Below the pieces are notes generated by a model. It was given only the letters and a program-made list of their open reading frames with translations. It did no database searches and was not told the origin of the DNA. A DNA stretch of 33,668 nt from Comamonadaceae bacterium (GTDB lineage Bacteria > Pseudomonadota > Gammaproteobacteria > Burkholderiales > Burkholderiaceae_C), in NCBI GenBank assembly GCA_947448325.1, contig CANFMK010000008.1:1-33668 (forward strand), written 5' to 3'. Positions 3,378 through 30,211 of the stretch are shown here, piece by piece (the first letter of the stretch is position 1; the number at the start of each line of letters is the position of its first letter). The translations under genes and the position numbers were made by a program.

Positions 3378-3395
3378 ACTTGACGTAAGTCAAGT
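3378..3395. promoter_or_regulatory. Palindrome ACTTGAC-GTAA-GTCAAGT, FNR/CRP-family-like operator (TTGAC-N4-GTCAA)
   Basis: Perfect 7-bp inverted repeat with 4-nt spacer, about 45-60 bp upstream of the channel start codon; resembles FNR-type TTGAT-N4-ATCAA half-site geometry. Confidence 0.5.
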
Positions 3396-3439: not shown

Positions 3440-5092
3440 ATGCAGCTCATTTCTTTGTCACACCCTGCCCCCCCATCTTCTTCTCAGCCTCGCGCCAAAG
3501 GCCTTTTGCCGCTGATCCATCAATGGCTGTTTGATCCGGCGTTTGAACAGGGTTATCACCGCGAGGTGGAGAACGGCATTGGTTGGCTCATCATCGTCAG
3601 TGTGGTGGCCATCATCGCCGAACACATTGAGCCGATTTATGCCGGACGGGAGCTGTGGTTTCACATTTTTGATGTGGTGTCGATCGGCGTGTTCACGCTG
3701 GAGTACGTATTGCGTTTGGCCACAGCCCCGTGGGAGGCCGAATACGCCGGCCAGCGTTTTGCGCGCTGGCGCCATGCGGTGAGTTTTTACGCCTTGGTGG
3801 ATTTGCTGGCGATTGCACCCTTTTACTTCTCTGGATTTGTGGCCATGGACGTGGAAATGCTGCGCGCATTGCGGCTGCTGCGTTTGATGCGAATCCTCAA
3901 GCTGTCGCGCTACATGGTGCCGGCTTGGAAAGATTTTCAACAACTCAACCGGGGCCGCAGTGTGCGCGGCAAGTTGCATGCCTTGCTCGAGCCCACCGGC
4001 CACTCCGGTCAGTTGCATGTTTACTTAGACAACTTCATCATGTTTTGGGTGTTGGTGTCCATCATTGCGGTGGTGATGGAGTCGGTGCAGTCGGTGCATG
4101 CGGTCTTGTCTTTTGAGTTTTTCGTGATCGATGCATTGGCCTTCAGCATCTTCACCTTGGAGTATGTGGCACGCTTGTATGCCGCACCCGAAAACCCGGC
4201 CTACAAAAAAGCATTTCTGCCCCGCTGGGCGCATTTCAAGGCCGGGCCGAACATCATTGATTTGTTGGCGATCTTGCCGTTTTTGCTCGAGCATTTCTTG
4301 CCCTTTGCTTTGGACCTGCGCTTCTTGCGGGTGTTCAGGCTGATGCGCTTGCTCAAACTGACGCGCTACACCTCGGCCACCAAGACCTTGTTCCAAGTGG
4401 TCAAGCGCGAATGGCAGGTGATTTTTGCTTCGGTATTCGTCATGCTGCTGTTGGTGGTGCTGACCGCCAGTTTGGGCTTTTTATTCGAGCACGAAGCCCA
4501 GCCCGACAAATTTGAAAACATTCCCCAATCCATTTACTGGGCGGTGGTCACCTTGGCCTCGGTGGGTTATGGCGACATTTCACCCATCACGCCCATGGGC
4601 AGGGCGCTCACTGTGGTGCTGGCTTTGGTGGGCATTGGGATTTTTGCCATCCCCGCTGGCTTGCTGGCCTCCGCATTCACCGACCAATTGCGCATTGACC
4701 GGGAAGACTTCAAGCACAAGTTGTTGCTGGCCTTTGAAAAGGGCGAATTGGACACCAAGGCGCGCGCCATGATTGCCGAAGAGTCTGAGCGTTTGCATTT
4801 GTCGTTGGACGACATCAAGCGCTTGACCCACGAAGCGCGGGAGGCCATCAAGGCGCAGCAACGCGAGGAGCAGCGCTGGACATCTGCGGTGGTGTTGGAC
4901 CCCAAAACAAACCCCGAGTTGGCTGTGCAGCAATGGCGGTTGTTGGTGTCACAGTTGCAGATGCTGTCCCAAGCGGCAGGCCCACAAGTGCTGGCCAATC
5001 AATTGCAAACGACGCAGCCTCATAACGAGGTGTGTCTGCGCGTGCTCAAGTCACTTCAGGCCACGCAGCCCTTACCTCCAACCGCAGTGTGA
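3440..5092 (+). CDS. Voltage-gated potassium channel-like protein with two tandem voltage-sensor domains and one pore
   Basis: Two S1-S4-like blocks (FTLEYVLRL..DLLAIAPF..LRALRLLRLMRILKLSRY and FTLEYVARL..DLLAILPF..LRFLRVFRLMRLLKLTRY); one selectivity filter (TLASVGYGDIS) after the second. ORF track starts at TTG 3437; ATG at 3440. Confidence 0.88.
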   Translation: MQLISLSHPAPPSSSQPRAKGLLPLIHQWLFDPAFEQGYHREVENGIGWLIIVSVVAIIAEHIEPIYAGRELWFHIFDVVSIGVFTLEYVLRLATAPWEAEYAGQRFARWRHAVSFYALVDLLAIAPFYFSGFVAMDVEMLRALRLLRLMRILKLSRYMVPAWKDFQQLNRGRSVRGKLHALLEPTGHSGQLHVYLDNFIMFWVLVSIIAVVMESVQSVHAVLSFEFFVIDALAFSIFTLEYVARLYAAPENPAYKKAFLPRWAHFKAGPNIIDLLAILPFLLEHFLPFALDLRFLRVFRLMRLLKLTRYTSATKTLFQVVKREWQVIFASVFVMLLLVVLTASLGFLFEHEAQPDKFENIPQSIYWAVVTLASVGYGDISPITPMGRALTVVLALVGIGIFAIPAGLLASAFTDQLRIDREDFKHKLLLAFEKGELDTKARAMIAEESERLHLSLDDIKRLTHEAREAIKAQQREEQRWTSAVVLDPKTNPELAVQQWRLLVSQLQMLSQAAGPQVLANQLQTTQPHNEVCLRVLKSLQATQPLPPTAV

Positions 5093-5136: not shown

Positions 5137-6903
5137 ATGACATCTCCAACCCTTGAAAATCAGGCTTCATCGGAAGCTGCTCTGCGCGAAGCCGCGCAGC
5201 ATTTGGACCAGACGCTGCACAGCCTGTGGGCCAAATCCAGCATGGGGTTGTCCCCCATCGCCATGACTTTGGCCTACATGGACTGGGCCATGCATCTGGG
5301 CTCTTCGCCAGGGCAACAAATGCTGCAGGCACAGCAATCCTGGACGGATTTTCAACAGCATCTGCAAGGTGCCAGCGAAGAAAAAGACCCGCGCTTTCTG
5401 GATGCCTCTTGGCAGCAATGGCCTTTCAGTGCATTCAAAGAAAGCTACAAAGCGCAGGCCAACCATTGGCTGCGCAGCACCCAGGTCGAAGGCATGTCGG
5501 AGCACCATCGCCATATGGTCGGATTTTTCACCCGCCAATGGCTTGATGCCCTGTCGCCTTCCAATTGGCCGCTGAGTAATCCCGAAGTCTTGCACAAAGC
5601 CATAGAGACACAGGGTGAGAGTTTGCAAAAAGGCTTGAAGCATTACCTGGCCGATGTGCACCCTGTGGCCAGCGATGCACATGGGCAGGATGCTGCTCAG
5701 ATCTTGCAGCCTTTGCCATTTGCGGTGGGCAAAGACGTGGCCACCACGCCGGGCAAAGTGGTGTTTCGCAACCGCCTGATCGAGCTGATTCAGTACGCGC
5801 CCACCACGGACAAAGTGCATGCCGAGCCGCTCTTGATCGTGCCCTCGTGCATCATGAAATACTATATTTTGGATTTGTCGCCGCACAACTCCATGGTGCG
5901 TTTCTTGGTTGACCAAGGCCATACCGTGTTCATGATTTCTTGGCGCAATCCGCAGGCCTCAGACCGTGATCTGGGCATGGACGACTACCTGCGCTTGGGT
6001 GTGATGGATGCCATGGCCGCCGTCAAATCGCAAACCGGTCAAGCCCGCCTGCATGCCCTGGGTTATTGCTTGGGCGGCACTTTCTTGTCCATTGTGGCGG
6101 CGGCGTTGGGACGCAAGTCCAGTCGACGCAGCAGTCGCAGCGACCCCGCCATGCCCGAGCTGGGCAGTGTGACCTTGTTGGCCGCGCAAACGGACTTTTC
6201 AGAACCCGGTGAATTGGGTTTGTTCATTGACGACGACCAACTGCAAACCTTGCGCGAAGACATGGCCCAAAAAGGCTATTTGTCGGGCAAACAAATGGCC
6301 GGCGCGTTTCAGTTCCTGAATGCGCGTGACTTGATCTGGTCGCGCAGCACCCACCGCTATTGGATGGGCGAAGAAGAGGTCGGCATGGACATGATGAGCT
6401 GGAACGCCGATGTGACGCGTTTGCCCGAGCGCATGCACAGCGAATACTTGGACAGTTTGTTTTTGCACGACGCCCTGGCCAAAGGCCATTACCGCTTTGC
6501 GGGCGAAGGTTTGGCGCTGATGGACATCAAAACCCCGATGCTGGTGGTGGGCACGGTGCGCGACCATGTGTCGCCTTGGCGTTCGGTCTACAAGATTCAC
6601 TTGACCACCGACACCGACACCACTTTCATCCTCGCTGCGGGCGGGCACAACGCCGGCATCATCTCTGAGCCCGGACACCCCAAGCGCAGTTATCAGATGC
6701 ACCACGTCAGCCCAGGTCACACCTGGATCGAGCCAGAAGCCTGGGTCAAAAAAGCGTCCCTGCATGAAGGCTCTTGGTGGGTGCCGATGCAAAACTGGTT
6801 GGCCAAGCATTCAGGATCCCTCATCAAAGCCCGCCCCATTCCTGCCGCCACCGTGTTGTGTGATGCGCCGGGCACTTATGTGAAAGTTCGTTATGCAGAT
6901 TGA
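5137..6903 (+). CDS. phaC: Poly(3-hydroxyalkanoate) synthase (class I-like)
   Basis: Lipase-like box GYCLGG with nucleophilic Cys, DHVSPW Asp and GGHNAGI His. Start at ATG 5137 (MTSPTLENQ) preferred over 5032, which overlaps the channel gene. Confidence 0.9.
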   Translation: MTSPTLENQASSEAALREAAQHLDQTLHSLWAKSSMGLSPIAMTLAYMDWAMHLGSSPGQQMLQAQQSWTDFQQHLQGASEEKDPRFLDASWQQWPFSAFKESYKAQANHWLRSTQVEGMSEHHRHMVGFFTRQWLDALSPSNWPLSNPEVLHKAIETQGESLQKGLKHYLADVHPVASDAHGQDAAQILQPLPFAVGKDVATTPGKVVFRNRLIELIQYAPTTDKVHAEPLLIVPSCIMKYYILDLSPHNSMVRFLVDQGHTVFMISWRNPQASDRDLGMDDYLRLGVMDAMAAVKSQTGQARLHALGYCLGGTFLSIVAAALGRKSSRRSSRSDPAMPELGSVTLLAAQTDFSEPGELGLFIDDDQLQTLREDMAQKGYLSGKQMAGAFQFLNARDLIWSRSTHRYWMGEEEVGMDMMSWNADVTRLPERMHSEYLDSLFLHDALAKGHYRFAGEGLALMDIKTPMLVVGTVRDHVSPWRSVYKIHLTTDTDTTFILAAGGHNAGIISEPGHPKRSYQMHHVSPGHTWIEPEAWVKKASLHEGSWWVPMQNWLAKHSGSLIKARPIPAATVLCDAPGTYVKVRYAD

Positions 6904-7273
6904 TTCCCTTTACAAAGACAACGCCACGCCTGGCCCCTTGCACCGCTTGGAAGCCTCGTTTGAGGCCTTGAACGCACGCATCGCGCGCCTGGCCATCAGC
7001 CTGGGCGTGCCGCTGGACCATGAAGACCATATCCATGAGATCTTGCGCTCACCCCAGGCGGTGTACTTTGCCGACCCGCAACACAAGCGCTACTGGATCG
7101 AGTTGCGTGGCCTGTTGGTGCTGCGCTATGGCATGGAGAAAAATGCCGCCGAGCAAGTGGGCGTCGAAACCCTCAAGCAAATCTTGCTTGATGCCGAAGA
7201 ACACCTGCAAATTGAGGGCTTCAAGCCCGGTGCTGATGGCCTTTGGGTGCATGAGCTGTTCAAGAAGGACTGA
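6893..7273 (+). CDS. Conserved hypothetical protein, 126 aa, overlapping the phaC 3' end
   Basis: ORF in the same direction, 11-nt overlap with phaC, 4 nt from the next gene; no family recognised. Confidence 0.75.
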   Translation: MQIDSLYKDNATPGPLHRLEASFEALNARIARLAISLGVPLDHEDHIHEILRSPQAVYFADPQHKRYWIELRGLLVLRYGMEKNAAEQVGVETLKQILLDAEEHLQIEGFKPGADGLWVHELFKKD

Positions 7274-7276
7274 GCG

Positions 7277-8053
7277 ATGACGAATTCAGTTCTCAACAGT
7301 TTGTCAGGTAAAAAAGGCCTGATCCTGGGCCTGGCCAACGAGCACAGCATTGCCTGGGGTTGCACCCGTTTGGCCCATGCGCAAGGTGCGCAGTTGTTCA
7401 CGACCTGTTTGAATGACAAGGCACTGCGCTTTGTGGAGCCCCTGACCCAGCCTTTGGGCGTTCCGGTGCTGCCTTGCAATGTGGAAGAAGCGGGCAGCCT
7501 GGCGCAGGTCGTTGCGCAAGCGGTGGCCCAATTGGGCTCGCTGGACTTTGTCATCCACTCGATCGCCTGGGCGCCGCTGGAAGACTTGCACGGCCAGGTG
7601 ATCGACAGCTCCAGTGTGGGTTTTGCGCGTGCCATGGAAGTGTCTTGCCATTCGTTTGCCACGTTGGCCAAACTCTGCGCGCCGCACATGACCCGTGGCG
7701 GCAGCATGCTCACCATGAGCTATTTGGGCGCTGACGAAGCTGTGCCGCACTACGGTCTGATGGGGCCGGTCAAGGCGGCGCTCGAATCTCTGGTGCGCTA
7801 CATGGCGGTGGAATTGGGACCTCACCAGATCCGAGTGCACGCCGTCTCGCCCGGCCCGATCCTGACGCGCGCCGCCTCGGGGATTGAGGGGTTCGATGAC
7901 TTGATGCTGAACGCGGTGCGCAAAGCACCGTTGGGCCGCTTGGTGCGCTTGGATGAAATTGCCCAGTTGTGTGCGTTTTTGTGCTCGGATGCCGCTTCGG
8001 GCATGACCGGACAGACGCTGTATGTGGACGCAGGCTGCCATGCGGTGGCGTGA
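7277..8053 (+). CDS. fabI: Enoyl-[acyl-carrier-protein] reductase (FabI-like SDR)
   Basis: KKGLILGLANEHSIAWG N-terminus, SYLGADEAVPHYGLMGPVKAALES (Y-x6-K), SPGPILTRAASGI. Confidence 0.88.
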   Translation: MTNSVLNSLSGKKGLILGLANEHSIAWGCTRLAHAQGAQLFTTCLNDKALRFVEPLTQPLGVPVLPCNVEEAGSLAQVVAQAVAQLGSLDFVIHSIAWAPLEDLHGQVIDSSSVGFARAMEVSCHSFATLAKLCAPHMTRGGSMLTMSYLGADEAVPHYGLMGPVKAALESLVRYMAVELGPHQIRVHAVSPGPILTRAASGIEGFDDLMLNAVRKAPLGRLVRLDEIAQLCAFLCSDAASGMTGQTLYVDAGCHAVA

Positions 8054-8068
8054 TCTTGTTGAAATGGA

Positions 8069-9487
8069 ATGCTGGCTGTGACTGAAATCGACCTGATTGA
8101 AAACCTGACATACGATGAACTCAGCGTGGGGCAAAGTGCCAGGCTGATCCGCACCCTGACCTTGGCCGATATCCAAGCCTTTGCGGCGGTATCGGGTGAC
8201 ACCAACCCGGCGCATTTGGACCCGGCCTATGCCAACGACACCTTGTTCCATGGCGTGATTGCCCACGGCATGTGGGGTGGGGCCTTGATTTCGGCTTTGC
8301 TGGGGACGCAGTTCCCCGGCCCCGGCACCATTTACCTGCAGCAAGACTTGCATTTTTCGCGGCCGGTGCGCATTGGCGATACGCTGACCGTCACGGTCAG
8401 CATCACAGGCAAGGACGACGCTAAAAAGCGTGTCGACTTGGACTGTGAGGTGATCAATCAGCATGCCGAGCGCGTGCTGCATGGCTCGGCCCGGGTGCTG
8501 GCGCCGACCCAAAAAGTGCGCCGTCCCCGTTCCACGGTGCCGCACATTCAGTTGTTTGATCCCGAAGCCCGGTTCAAGGCCTTGCTGGCCAGAGCCGAGG
8601 GCTTGGAGGCGGTGCGCTGCGCAGTGGTTCACCCTTGCGACGCCGAGTCCTTATCGGGGGCCTTGGACGCTGCGCGCTACGGTCTGATCATTCCGGTGCT
8701 GATCGGCCCGACCGCCAAGATCGACAAGGTGGCGCTCGATGCCGGTCTGGATCTGAGCGGCATTGAACGCGTGGCCGTGCCGCACAGCCACGCCGCCGCC
8801 GAAGTGGCCGCCGCCATGGCCGCCAAGTGCGAAGTGGATATCTTGATGAAGGGCAGCTTGCACACCGACGAGTTGCTGCACGCGGTGCTGGCCCAGCCCA
8901 GCTTGCGCACCGGTCGGCGCATGTCGCATGTGTTTCGCTTTGATGTGCCGATGTACCCCAAGCCTTTGATGGTGACTGACGCCGCGCTCAATATCCGTCC
9001 CAGCTTGATGGACAAAGTGGACATCGTGCAAAACGCCATCGACATGGCGCACATCATGGGCATCGCATTGCCCAAAGTCGCCATCTTGGCGGCGGTAGAA
9101 ACCGTCAACCCGGACATGCCCTCCACGCTGGACGCGGCGGCGCTGTGCAAGATGGCCGATCGCGGCCAGATTCAAGGCGGGTTGCTGGACGGCCCCTTGG
9201 CTTTTGACAATGCGATTTCGCCGCATGCGGCGCAGATCAAGCACATCGTCTCGCAGGTGGCGGGGGACGCCGACATCTTGGCGGTGCCGGATCTGGAGTC
9301 AGGCAACATCTTGGCCAAACAGCTGGAATATTTGGCGGGGGCCACCGGTGCAGGCCTGGTGTTGGGTGCTCGGGTGCCGATTGCCTTGACCAGCCGCGCC
9401 GACAGCGCCAACACCCGGGTCGCCTCGGCTTTACTGGCGCTCTTGGCTGCGCACCATGCACGGGCTCAGGCAGCGGCTGCGGTTTGA
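8069..9487 (+). CDS. Bifunctional MaoC-like enoyl-CoA hydratase / phosphate acetyl(butyryl)transferase
   Basis: N-terminal hot-dog hydratase motif (FAAVSGDTNPAHLDPAYA...FHGVIAHGMW) fused to a Pta/Ptb domain (ILMKGSLHTDELLHAVL, DAALNIRP, GARVPIALTSRADS). Confidence 0.92.
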   Translation: MLAVTEIDLIENLTYDELSVGQSARLIRTLTLADIQAFAAVSGDTNPAHLDPAYANDTLFHGVIAHGMWGGALISALLGTQFPGPGTIYLQQDLHFSRPVRIGDTLTVTVSITGKDDAKKRVDLDCEVINQHAERVLHGSARVLAPTQKVRRPRSTVPHIQLFDPEARFKALLARAEGLEAVRCAVVHPCDAESLSGALDAARYGLIIPVLIGPTAKIDKVALDAGLDLSGIERVAVPHSHAAAEVAAAMAAKCEVDILMKGSLHTDELLHAVLAQPSLRTGRRMSHVFRFDVPMYPKPLMVTDAALNIRPSLMDKVDIVQNAIDMAHIMGIALPKVAILAAVETVNPDMPSTLDAAALCKMADRGQIQGGLLDGPLAFDNAISPHAAQIKHIVSQVAGDADILAVPDLESGNILAKQLEYLAGATGAGLVLGARVPIALTSRADSANTRVASALLALLAAHHARAQAAAAV

Positions 9488-9507: not shown

Positions 9508-10695
9508 ATGGCCATTCTTGCTGTCAACGCCGGTTCTTCGACCTTGAAGTTTTCTTTGCACCCGGTGCAGGGCGACCAAGTTTTGCCCAGTGTGCTCACC
9601 GGCAGCATCCAAGGTTTGGAGCCGCAAGGCACGCCTGAAATCAGTTGGCGCGAACAAGGCGATGTGGTCAAGCAAGCCTTGCCACCAGGGCAGGGCGATG
9701 CATTTGAGCTGGCCCTGCAGGAACTGCGCCATTTGCTGGCGCGCCTCCCCCATCTGCCGGCCTTGCAAGCCGTTGCGCACCGCGTGGTGCATGGCGGTGC
9801 CCACTACACCTGCAGCGTGCGCGTGACGCCCCAGGTGCTGCAAGACTTGGCCCAACTCAATTCACTGGCGCCGCTGCACCAACCGCACAACTTGGCGGGC
9901 ATTGCGGCCTTTGCCCAGGCTTTTCCGAAGCTGCCGCAAATCGCATGTTTTGACACCGCGTTTCACACCACCGTTGCGCCCACAGAGCAGCAATTTGCCT
10001 TGCCCCCATCGCTCACGCAGCAAGGCGTGCGCCGCTATGGCTTTCATGGCCTGTCTTACCAATACATCATGGGCGCGCTGAAAGAGCGCACACCGCGCGC
10101 CGATCGGCGCGTGCTCATGGCGCACCTGGGCAATGGCGCCAGCCTGTGCGCGGCGCAAGGCGGCGCAAGCTGCGCCACCACCATGGGTTTCTCGGCGCTT
10201 GACGGCTTGATGATGGGCACCCGCAGCGGCGCGCTGGACGCGGGCGTTCTGCTTTATTTGTTGGAGCAAGGCTGGACGCACGACCGTCTGCAAAACCTGC
10301 TCTACAAGCAGTCCGGTTTGCTGGGTGTGTCCGGCATCTCGGCCGATATGCGCAAGCTGCGCGCGGATGCCTCAGCGCAGGCGCAATGGGCGATCGATTT
10401 GTTCACCCACCGTGTGGTGCGCGAAAGCGGTGCCATGGTGGCCTGCCTGCAGGGCCTGGATGTGTTGGCCTTCAGCGGCGGTATTGGCGAACACGATGCA
10501 CAACTGCGCTTGCAGGTGTGCCAGGCGCTGCAATGGCTGGGCGTGCAGATCGACCCTGTGCGCAATCTGCAAGCTTGCGGCGACAACATCTTGTCCATTC
10601 ATGCTGTGGGTAGCATGGTCGAAATTTGGGTGGTGCCCACCGACGAAGGCCGTGTGGCCGCGCGCGAGGCGGCCGCTTTGCTGCGCGGCGCGTGA
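9508..10695 (+). CDS. ackA: Acetate kinase / acyl-phosphate kinase
   Basis: ILAVNAGSSTLKFSL N-terminus, RVVHGG, FDTAFHTT, HLGNGASLCA, FSGGIGEH. Confidence 0.93.
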   Translation: MAILAVNAGSSTLKFSLHPVQGDQVLPSVLTGSIQGLEPQGTPEISWREQGDVVKQALPPGQGDAFELALQELRHLLARLPHLPALQAVAHRVVHGGAHYTCSVRVTPQVLQDLAQLNSLAPLHQPHNLAGIAAFAQAFPKLPQIACFDTAFHTTVAPTEQQFALPPSLTQQGVRRYGFHGLSYQYIMGALKERTPRADRRVLMAHLGNGASLCAAQGGASCATTMGFSALDGLMMGTRSGALDAGVLLYLLEQGWTHDRLQNLLYKQSGLLGVSGISADMRKLRADASAQAQWAIDLFTHRVVRESGAMVACLQGLDVLAFSGGIGEHDAQLRLQVCQALQWLGVQIDPVRNLQACGDNILSIHAVGSMVEIWVVPTDEGRVAAREAAALLRGA

Positions 10696-27250: not shown

Positions 27251-30211
27251 ATGCTGCTGACCAAAAAGCCCCATGGCGCGCAGACCGCGCCTTCTTCTTC
27301 TTTTGTCCACAGCTTGCGGCGCGGTTTGTCGCAAGCCCTGCCCACCATGGACCGACGCAGTTTTCTGCGCCGCTCAGGTCTGGGCGTGGGCGTGGGACTG
27401 GCCGCTACGCAGTTGACCCTGGTCAAAAAAGCCCAAGCCAAAGATGCGGCAGCCGGACTGGGCGCTGGCAAAGTCGAAGTCAAGCGCACCGTGTGCACCC
27501 ACTGCTCGGTGGGTTGTGCGGTGGACGCCGTGGTGGAAAACGGCGTGTGGGTGCGCCAAGAGCCGGTGTTTGATTCGCCCATCAACCTGGGCGCGCATTG
27601 CGCCAAAGGCGCTGCGCTGCGCGAGCACGGTCATGGCGAATATCGTTTGCGCTACCCGATGAAGTTGGTCAACGGCAAATACGAAAAAATCAGCTGGGAC
27701 ACGGCGCTGAACGAGATCAGCGCCAAGATGCTCGAACTGCGCAAAGCCAGTGGCCCCGACAGCGTGTACTTTGTGGGCTCCTCCAAACACAACAACGAAC
27801 AAGCCTATTTGCTGCGCAAATTTGTCAGCTTCTGGGGCAGTAACAACTGCGACCACCAAGCCCGTATTTGCCACTCCACCACCGTGGCCGGTGTGGCCAA
27901 CACCTGGGGTTATGGCGCCATGACCAATTCGTACAACGACATGCAAAACAGCAAGGTCGCTTTGTACATTGGCTCCAATGCGGCCGAGGCCCATCCTGTG
28001 TCGATGCTGCACATGCTGCATGCCAAAGAAAACGGCTGCAAGATGATCGTGGTGGACCCGCGCTTCACCCGCACCGCGGCCAAAGCCGATGAGTATGTGC
28101 GCATCCGTTCGGGCACCGATATCCCGTTCCTCTTTGGTGTGCTGTACCACATCTTCAAGAACGGTTGGGAAGATAAAAAGTACATCAACGACCGGGTCTA
28201 CGGCATGGACGCGGTCAAAGCCGACGTCATGGACAAATGGACGCCGGACAAGGTGGAAGAAGCTTGCGGCGTGAAAGAAGAGCAGGTCTTCAAAATCGCC
28301 AAGATGCTGCACGAGAACAATCCCGGCACCATCGTGTGGTGCATGGGACAGACCCAGCACACCATCGGCAACGCCATCGTGCGCGCTTCGTGCATCTTGC
28401 AGTTGGCCCTGGGCAATGTGGGCAAGTCCGGCGGCGGCACGAATATTTTCCGGGGCCACGACAACGTGCAAGGCGCGACCGACGTGGGCCCCAATCCGGA
28501 TTCGCTGCCAGGCTATTACGGTTTGGCCGAAGGTTCTTGGAAGCACTTTGCCAAGGCCTGGGGCGTGGACTTTGAATGGATCAAAGGGCGCTTTGCCAGT
28601 CCCGCCATGATGAGCAAGAACGGCATCACCGTTTCGCGCTGGATCGACGGCGTGTTGGAAAAGAATGAGCTGATCGACCAAGACAGCAATTTGCGCGGCG
28701 TTTTCTACTGGGGCCATGCACCCAACTCGCAGACCCGAGGTCTGGAGATGAAGCGCGCCATGGACAAGCTCGATTTGCTGGTGGTGGTCGACCCTTACCC
28801 ATCCGCCACGGCGGCCATGGCGGCCATGCCCGGCAAGGCCGAAGACCTGAACCCGAACCGCGCCGTGTACCTGCTGCCTGCGGCGACGCAGTTTGAAACC
28901 AGCGGCTCTTGCACAGCGTCCAACCGCTCATTGCAGTGGCGTGAAAAAGTGATTGAGCCTTTGTGGGACAGCCGCAGCGACCACATGATCATGTACCAAT
29001 TTGCGCAAAAGCTGGGCTTTGGCGCGGAGCTGGTCAAGAACTACAAGATGCAAAAAGTCAAAGGCCTGGACGAGCCGGTGCCCGAAGACATCTTGCGTGA
29101 AATCAACAAATGCGTCTGGACCATTGGATACACCGGTCAAACCCCGGAGCGCTTGAAGGCGCACATGAAGAACATGCATTTGTTCGACGTGAAGACCCTC
29201 AAGTCCAAAGGCGGCAAAGACCCCGAAACAGGCTACGACACCACGGGTGATTACTTCGGTCTGCCTTGGCCTTGCTGGGGCACTGCCGAACTCAAACACC
29301 CGGGTTCGCCCAATTTGTATGACACCTCCAAACACGTCATGGAAGGCGGCGGAAACTTCCGCGCTAACTTTGGCGTGGAGCGTGAAGGCAAGAGTTTGTT
29401 GGCCGAAGACGGCTCCCACTCCAAGGGCGCCGACATCACCACGGGTTACCCGGAGCTCGATCACATCTTGCTCAAGAAGCTGGGCTGGTGGGATGAGTTG
29501 ACTGATGTCGAGAAAGCCGCGGCCGAAGGCAAAAACTGGAAGACCGATAACTCGGGCGGCATGATGCGCGTGTTCATGCAAAACCACGGCTGCCATCCGT
29601 TTGGCAACGCCAAAGCGCGTGCGGTGGTGTGGAACTTCCCTGATCCGATTCCGCAGCACCGTGAGCCCCTGTATGGCACCCGAGCCGACATGGCGGCCAA
29701 GTACCCGACGCACGACGACAAAAAAGCCTTCTGGCGTTTGCCGACCTTGTACAAAACCGTGCAAGACAAGAACATCGCCGACAAGGTGTACGAGAAGTTC
29801 CCGCTGATCATGACCTCGGGCCGTTTGGTCGAGTACGAAGGCGGCGGCGAAGAAACCCGTTCCAACCCTTGGTTGGCCGAGCTGCAGCAAGAGATGTTTG
29901 TCGAGATCAACCCGCAAACAGCGGCGAAACGTGGCATTCGCAATGGTGAGCGCGCATGGGTCAAGTCACCCACGGGCGCGCGCATCAATGTGCAGGCTTT
30001 GGTGACCGAGCGGGTGGGGCCAGACACGGTGTTCTTGCCGTTCCACTTTTCGGGCCGTTGGCAAGGTGCCGACATGCTGGCGCATTACCCCGCCGGTGCT
30101 GCGCCGATCGTGCGCGGCGAGGCGGTGAACACCGCCACCACCTACGGGTATGACAGCGTCACCATGATGCAAGAAACCAAGACCACCGTTTGCGAAATTG
30201 AGCGGGCGTAA
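27251..30211 (+). CDS. fdhA: Formate dehydrogenase catalytic (alpha) subunit, periplasmic, Tat-exported, Cys-type
   Basis: 986 aa; Tat motif RRSFLRRSGLGVGVG, CTHCSVGCAVDAVVENGVWVRQEP, active-site region DHQARICHSTTVAG, molydopterin dinucleotide-binding C-terminus. Confidence 0.95.
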   Translation: MLLTKKPHGAQTAPSSSFVHSLRRGLSQALPTMDRRSFLRRSGLGVGVGLAATQLTLVKKAQAKDAAAGLGAGKVEVKRTVCTHCSVGCAVDAVVENGVWVRQEPVFDSPINLGAHCAKGAALREHGHGEYRLRYPMKLVNGKYEKISWDTALNEISAKMLELRKASGPDSVYFVGSSKHNNEQAYLLRKFVSFWGSNNCDHQARICHSTTVAGVANTWGYGAMTNSYNDMQNSKVALYIGSNAAEAHPVSMLHMLHAKENGCKMIVVDPRFTRTAAKADEYVRIRSGTDIPFLFGVLYHIFKNGWEDKKYINDRVYGMDAVKADVMDKWTPDKVEEACGVKEEQVFKIAKMLHENNPGTIVWCMGQTQHTIGNAIVRASCILQLALGNVGKSGGGTNIFRGHDNVQGATDVGPNPDSLPGYYGLAEGSWKHFAKAWGVDFEWIKGRFASPAMMSKNGITVSRWIDGVLEKNELIDQDSNLRGVFYWGHAPNSQTRGLEMKRAMDKLDLLVVVDPYPSATAAMAAMPGKAEDLNPNRAVYLLPAATQFETSGSCTASNRSLQWREKVIEPLWDSRSDHMIMYQFAQKLGFGAELVKNYKMQKVKGLDEPVPEDILREINKCVWTIGYTGQTPERLKAHMKNMHLFDVKTLKSKGGKDPETGYDTTGDYFGLPWPCWGTAELKHPGSPNLYDTSKHVMEGGGNFRANFGVEREGKSLLAEDGSHSKGADITTGYPELDHILLKKLGWWDELTDVEKAAAEGKNWKTDNSGGMMRVFMQNHGCHPFGNAKARAVVWNFPDPIPQHREPLYGTRADMAAKYPTHDDKKAFWRLPTLYKTVQDKNIADKVYEKFPLIMTSGRLVEYEGGGEETRSNPWLAELQQEMFVEINPQTAAKRGIRNGERAWVKSPTGARINVQALVTERVGPDTVFLPFHFSGRWQGADMLAHYPAGAAPIVRGEAVNTATTYGYDSVTMMQETKTTVCEIERA

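Follow-up and report, generated by a model that had tools for sequence, protein, structure and literature searches.

A predicted bacterial channel subunit with two voltage sensors in series and a single K+-type pore

The analysed stretch of DNA (the window) covered positions 1–33,668 of contig CANFMK010000008.1 of a Comamonadaceae bacterium (GenBank assembly GCA_947448325.1). An ORF of 550 amino acids was located on the forward strand at 3440–5092, with the ATG at 3440 and the stop codon ending at 5092. ORF, Pfam, alignment and AlphaFold2 analyses identified it as the coding sequence of a channel subunit with the order voltage sensor, voltage sensor, pore (VSD-VSD-pore). The genes downstream on the same strand were a phaC-like polyhydroxyalkanoate synthase gene 44 bp after the channel gene (5137–6903; PhaC_N 1.9e-55), a conserved neighbour encoding a 126-aa protein without a Pfam match, which overlaps phaC (6893–7273), a fabI-like enoyl reductase gene (7277–8053; adh_short_C2 3.5e-82), a MaoC-phosphotransacetylase fusion gene (pta, 8069–9487; PTA_PTB 5.2e-41, MaoC 2.1e-22) and the acetate kinase gene ackA (9508–10695; Acetate_kinase 1.5e-100). 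The intergenic gaps of this channel-to-ackA run ranged from -11 to 44 bp, and the same gene order on one strand was observed in loci L009 and L010. phaC was also linked to the dual-sensor gene in another order (L028, L029, and L043), and the dual-sensor gene came after ackA in L025–L029 and L043. The channel gene and phaC probably belong to the same operon.

Sequences within 400 bp upstream of the dual-sensor genes were searched for the FNR-type pattern TTGAY-N4-RTCAA, which represents the FNR consensus. An inverted repeat of this type, TTGACGTAAGTCAA (3380–3393, forward strand), was found 46 bp before the ATG of the channel gene. The window contains only one other match, TTGACCCTGGTCAA (27413–27426), which lies within a long ORF (27251–30211) and probably arose by chance. 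In six loci of the closest clade (the window, L009, L010, L012, L014, and L015), the pattern is conserved in place and starts 60–75 bp ahead of the gene; in the five loci other than the window it was the only match of each locus and starts 70–75 bp before the gene start used. The 400 bp preceding the remaining dual-sensor genes contained no such site (6 of 72 have it in all), and the single match in each of L025 and L026 lies upstream of pta. The dksA-phaC2-fabI operon of Herbaspirillum seropedicae is a direct Fnr1 target (PMC5934665). Low-oxygen expression of the channel gene in the clade of the window is a reasonable inference because of the FNR-type site together with the phaC-fabI-pta-ackA operon.

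From the N to the C terminus, the protein consisted of S1–S4, a linker of approximately 30 residues without a pore, a second S1–S4 and a single S5-P-S6 region with the filter TLASVGYGD. The Ion_trans profile (PF00520) matched the whole protein in two stretches with 145 bits against a cut-off of 25, and 75 of 75 relatives matched it too, while an NCBIfam search of the protein returned no family above the cut-off. The first half alone matched only the S1–S4 part of Ion_trans (1.6e-13, profile positions 10–112 of 241); the second half alone matched the full domain (1.8e-30) and Ion_trans_2. The initial annotation had described two S1–S4-like blocks sharing three motifs, and the quoted pairs could be located in both blocks (FTLEYVLRLATAP / FTLEYVARLYAAP, DLLAIAPF / DLLAILPF, and LRALRLLRLMRILKLSRY / LRFLRVFRLMRLLKLTRY). 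The self-alignment it had proposed revealed that the blocks are homologous, with 36% identity over 132 aa (E 5e-25). The single TxxSVGYGD-type filter it had placed after block 2 was also confirmed, with one TLASVGYGD in the ORF; this is a close variant of the Kv filter TxxTVGYGD, with T changed to S at the fourth place. Pfam, self-alignment, and AlphaFold2 agreed that each subunit has two complete voltage sensors but a single pore of the K+ type.

A monomer model was produced by AlphaFold2 from an alignment of 75 sequences (mean pLDDT 82, pTM 0.68). Voltage sensor 1 (residues 22–158; 3503–3913) was modelled as a four-helix bundle at pLDDT 86–97, consisting of a pre-S1 helix (22–31), S1 (40–61), S2 (71–94), S3 (108–133), and a long S4 (138–169). 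The opposite outcome had been set beforehand as the test by which the two-sensor claim would fail; the four-helix block 1 was seen again in the model of a dual-sensor paralogue of the same genome (44–48% identical, same helix order, mean pLDDT 76). The inter-sensor linker (residues 159–188; 3914–4003) comprised the end of the S4 helix, extending to residue 169, and a short pre-S1 helix (175–183). A degenerate pore between the sensors could be ruled out, as this helical linker of about 30 residues has no space for one. Voltage sensor 2 (residues 189–310; 4004–4369) followed with S1 (190–214), S2 (217–247), S3 (261–286), and S4 (293–310), and then an S4–S5 linker helix (313–323; 4376–4408). The pore domain (residues 325–425; 4412–4714; Ion_trans_2 1.8e-17) was formed by S5 (325–350), a pore helix (363–375), and S6 (385–433), and cytoplasmic helices made up the tail (residues 426–550; 4715–5089). 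The filter region was modelled poorly (pLDDT below 50 at 364–382), as may be expected when a symmetric pore is modelled from a single chain. Foldseek comparison against the PDB matched Kv4, KCNQ, Kv2, and Kv1 channels, and no VSD-VSD-pore description was present among the best 50 matches listed.

The layout is not an assembly chimera, as it recurred in 74 other full-length proteins, including those of isolates (Limnohabitans sp. Jir61, Limnohabitans sp. 2KL-17, and Polynucleobacter sp. UB-Piko-W3), in single-contig genomes (G081, G735, G757, and G860), and in Gemmobacter aquarius. Distribution was evaluated in even genome samples at the genus, family, class, and phylum levels, the last three of which include the genome of the window itself. 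Full-length dual-sensor genes were carried by 24 of the 61 genomes sampled from the genus of the window and by at least 48 of the 60 from a second genus, that around G081, some of them with two or more copies. The corresponding counts were 2 of 101 genomes for the family, 1 of 274 for the class, and 2 of 399 for the phylum. The gene is thus common in two freshwater Burkholderiales genera and rare elsewhere. Named records with the protein include Limnohabitans, Polynucleobacter, Ramlibacter, Polaromonas, and Oxalobacteraceae. A metagenome-assembled genome labelled Alphaproteobacteria (L036) contained a dual-sensor gene of 65% identity, with its tail in a different frame.

The divergent Gemmobacter aquarius protein WP_159082572.1, annotated only as 'ion transporter', shares the VSD-VSD-pore order and is 37% identical over 346 aa. 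It differs by a short tail, a reduced sensor 1 ladder, and the location of its gene on a plasmid of an alphaproteobacterium (L112:3719-5194, NZ_CP028919.1). Its sensor 1 S4 keeps the equivalents of R142, R145, R148, and R157, with R151 changed to S and K154 to H, which suggests that the full sensor 1 ladder is not needed everywhere. When 249 genomes of one family of the same phylum were searched with this protein, no second Gemmobacter-like dual-sensor protein was found; the only candidate, L131, proved to be a channel with one sensor and a tail that, by eye, resembles a cyclic-nucleotide-binding domain. A second sensor was not found in long open frames such as L100–L102 and L127, which were likewise rejected.

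Conservation counts were based on 75 aligned full-length proteins (the window protein and 74 others) and not on the census of 89 VVP domain entries, which contained the same gene more than once and two false entries. These two, L104 and L105, have a single sensor split by an S3 insertion and, by eye, RCK-like tails, and were left out. In the S4 of sensor 1 (3851–3910), R145, R148, R151, K154, and R157 were present in 75 of 75 proteins and R142 in 72; in the S4 of sensor 2 (4316–4366), all six charges (R294, R297, R300, R303, K306, and R309) were present in every protein. The homologue survey suggested earlier for both arginine ladders therefore found them invariant or nearly so. The acidic partners D78, E88, and D121 of sensor 1 and D231, E241, and D274 of sensor 2 were likewise found in 75 of 75, together with R92 and R245, and the charge-transfer Phe was conserved in both sensors (F85 in 74 of 75, F238 in 75 of 75). 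The pore domain had the highest mean pairwise identity (78%), followed by sensor 2 (59%), the linker (54%), sensor 1 (51%), and, as the least conserved part, the tail (32%). The filter (residues 371–379; 4550–4576) was invariant. The conservation of the linker was comparable to that of the sensors, and P161, A162, N170, and R176 were invariant in it, as expected of a putative coupling element.

The dN/dS of sensor 1 was about 0.02–0.22 (Nei-Gojobori, only pairs with unsaturated synonymous sites), similar to that of sensor 2. Sensor 1 is thus maintained by purifying selection as a sensor and is not a relic. An ordinary Kv channel carrying a silent second sensor left from a gene fusion is most improbable: natural paralogues do manage without sensor 1, but this dN/dS and the invariance of functional residues over many species speak against it. 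It is less far-fetched, though still unlikely, that sensor 1 has lost voltage sensing and is kept for assembly, targeting, or the binding of a partner. Such a role would suit the faster divergence of sensor 1 compared with sensor 2 and the pore, the reduced ladder of the Gemmobacter homologue, and the frequent position of dual-sensor genes beside single-sensor channel genes. However, S4 charges at every third residue with three acidic counter-charges, conserved across the 75 proteins as given above, are hard to explain without charge movement.

Comparison with known systems demonstrated the closest likeness to Kv channels (Kv2.1, Kv4.2, and KCNQ), which were the best PDB matches by sequence and fold and share VSD2, the S4–S5 linker, the pore, and a VGYGD-type filter. 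The VSD2-pore part was nearest to Kv2, Kv4, and KCNQ channels, and VSD1 to Kv4 sensors. The classical six-transmembrane Kv subunit has one sensor per pore, whereas the dual-sensor protein has two in a row, the first of them not followed by a pore; it does not fit the one-sensor-per-pore definition. Bacterial single-VSD Ion_trans channels of Pseudomonadota (about 320–360 aa), among which the VSD2-pore part is nested in trees, lack both sensor 1 and the conserved linker. Two-pore channels (TPC) also carry two VSDs per chain, but have a pore after each, in contrast to residues 159–188 here. Voltage sensors are known in the layouts VSD-pore, VSD-pore repeats, and VSD alone, and the protein may be placed in the voltage-gated channel superfamily as a new architectural variant. 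According to a 2023 review, every prokaryotic voltage sensor known so far accompanies its own pore (PMC10377628), a statement from which sensor 1 departs. No VSD-VSD-pore protein was found in the open-access literature searched.

Hv1 proton channels, like sensor 1, are a VSD without its own pore, and the initial annotation had suggested that the first block may conduct protons. As an independent ion pathway fused to a K+ channel, like Hv1 or HCNL1, sensor 1 would give coupled H+ and K+ flux. Isolated sensors are described as able to conduct protons (Hv1; HCNL1), and sensor 1, like Hv1, has no pore of its own and has a full S4. However, Hv1 has an S1 Asp, the Trp of RxWRxxR, and no pore domain, whereas the dual-sensor protein has none of these motifs and has a pore at residues 325–425. 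Asp or Glu at S1 residues 45–60 was found in none of the 75 relatives. Seven residues ahead of the conserved E61, at what we take to be the place of the Hv1 filter Asp, 71 of 75 had N or S. The S4 Trp is replaced by the invariant Leu144 (R142-A-L144-R145), and with six charges the ladder resembles that of Kv channels and not the three Arg of Hv1. The S1 Asp and S4 Trp are Hv1 hallmarks (PMC8804609, PMC10377628), and prokaryotic Hv1 is not known (PMC10377628). Because both hallmarks are absent, proton conduction by block 1 is disfavoured and the fused pathway appears improbable; a putative accessory-sensor role, also considered earlier, is the better supported option.

The origin of the two sensors was addressed by phylogenetic analysis. 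In the VSD tree, all first sensors, including that of Gemmobacter, formed one clade (98/100), and second sensors were placed among ordinary single-sensor channels, apart from the first. Forcing the two together cost 10.5 log-likelihood units (p-AU 0.037). The description of the blocks as internal duplicates thus holds in the broad sense of homology; a recent internal tandem duplication received no support from the tree. Since the first sensors form their own clade and joining is costly, sensor 1 is old or fast-evolving. Short paralogues of about 390–430 aa without sensor 1 were present in the same genera (L124, L134–L138, L140, and L141), and most of them retain the inter-sensor linker (type NKGRTFRQKVFxLLHxTPTSGPLH) near the N terminus, together with the pore. 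In the VSD2-pore tree, dual-sensor proteins and the short-paralogue clade formed one group (94/96), with the short clade (98/90) sister to the betaproteobacterial dual-sensor proteins (99/94) and Gemmobacter outside; a single dual-sensor clade was compatible with the data (p-AU 0.30). The linker in the short forms would fit a loss of sensor 1 from a dual-sensor ancestor, and a gain of sensor 1 after the split of dual and short forms may also be considered. Upstream of the L124 short gene, no trace of sensor 1 was found, and in the other short-form loci all matches, among those listed, fall in the sensor that is present. Because short paralogues without sensor 1 keep the linker and the pore, sensor 1 looks like a module added to a self-sufficient channel.

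A voltage-gated K+ channel is the default reading because VSD2 is normally placed and precedes a pore with a K+ filter. With moderate confidence, we infer a voltage-gated channel that is selective for K+ and presumably tetrameric, with two working sensors in each subunit, sensor 2 driving the pore and sensor 1 tuning the gating through the linker. Four subunits would assemble like other Ion_trans K+ channels and give eight sensors per pore, the number proposed earlier, which agrees with the two complete sensors found per subunit provided that the presumed tetramer forms. Sensor 2, in the usual place before the S4–S5 linker, would drive the pore in the manner of Kv channels. Sensor 1 would act as a second gating-charge unit. 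Its S4 is predicted to extend as a single helix into the conserved linker and on to the pre-S1 helix of sensor 2, which would provide a covalent path for coupling, and the movement of sensor 1 would most likely be relayed via the linker to sensor 2. Such a relay may shift or steepen the voltage dependence, or add a second voltage threshold. More tentatively, and with clearly lower probability, the outer four of the eight sensors could provide another voltage threshold, tuned independently, or be coupled to adjacent channel subunits, forming a bacterial electrical signalling module of freshwater Burkholderiales, some of which have four or five voltage-gated channel genes in a cluster. The family offers a natural experiment on the coupling of an extra sensor to a pore, with the sensor-1-less paralogues of the same genera as controls, in culturable and abundant freshwater bacteria (Limnohabitans and Polynucleobacter). 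Studies of the electrical physiology of these two genera were not found in the open-access literature.

A further alternative is that the subunit works only in heteromers with adjacent single-sensor subunits bearing shortened filters (TITSGYGN, TIISGWGN). The recurrent cluster dual2-KvA-KvB-dual1 would favour such an arrangement, but many dual-sensor genes, including that of the window, are located away from the KvA/KvB pair, and the dual-sensor protein has its own complete K+ filter; obligate heteromers accordingly appear improbable.

The KvA and KvB genes are overlapping single-sensor genes beside dual-sensor genes. Their filters were one residue short, with D changed to N, in 32 of 32 sequences, KvA having TITSGYGN and KvB a T(I/L)xSGWGN-type filter with one AGWGG variant. 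The pair was located at L099:3301-5174 (reverse strand), L016:65-1947 (forward strand), L019–L023, L037, L039, L065, L066, and L080–L082, and, in the window's own genome, at the end of contig C101 and on C137 (L003/L108:2-1681). KvA and KvB possibly assemble into a heteromer of unusual selectivity. In L037, L099, L016, L019–L021, L023, and L039, four or five voltage-gated channel genes were clustered in the order dual-sensor 2, KvA, KvB, and dual-sensor 1, and several of these loci contained an extra Kv-like gene on the opposite strand between KvB and dual-sensor 1. Two dual-sensor genes in direct tandem were observed in one genome (L139, G861:C60:400-4000), with a similar arrangement in G829.
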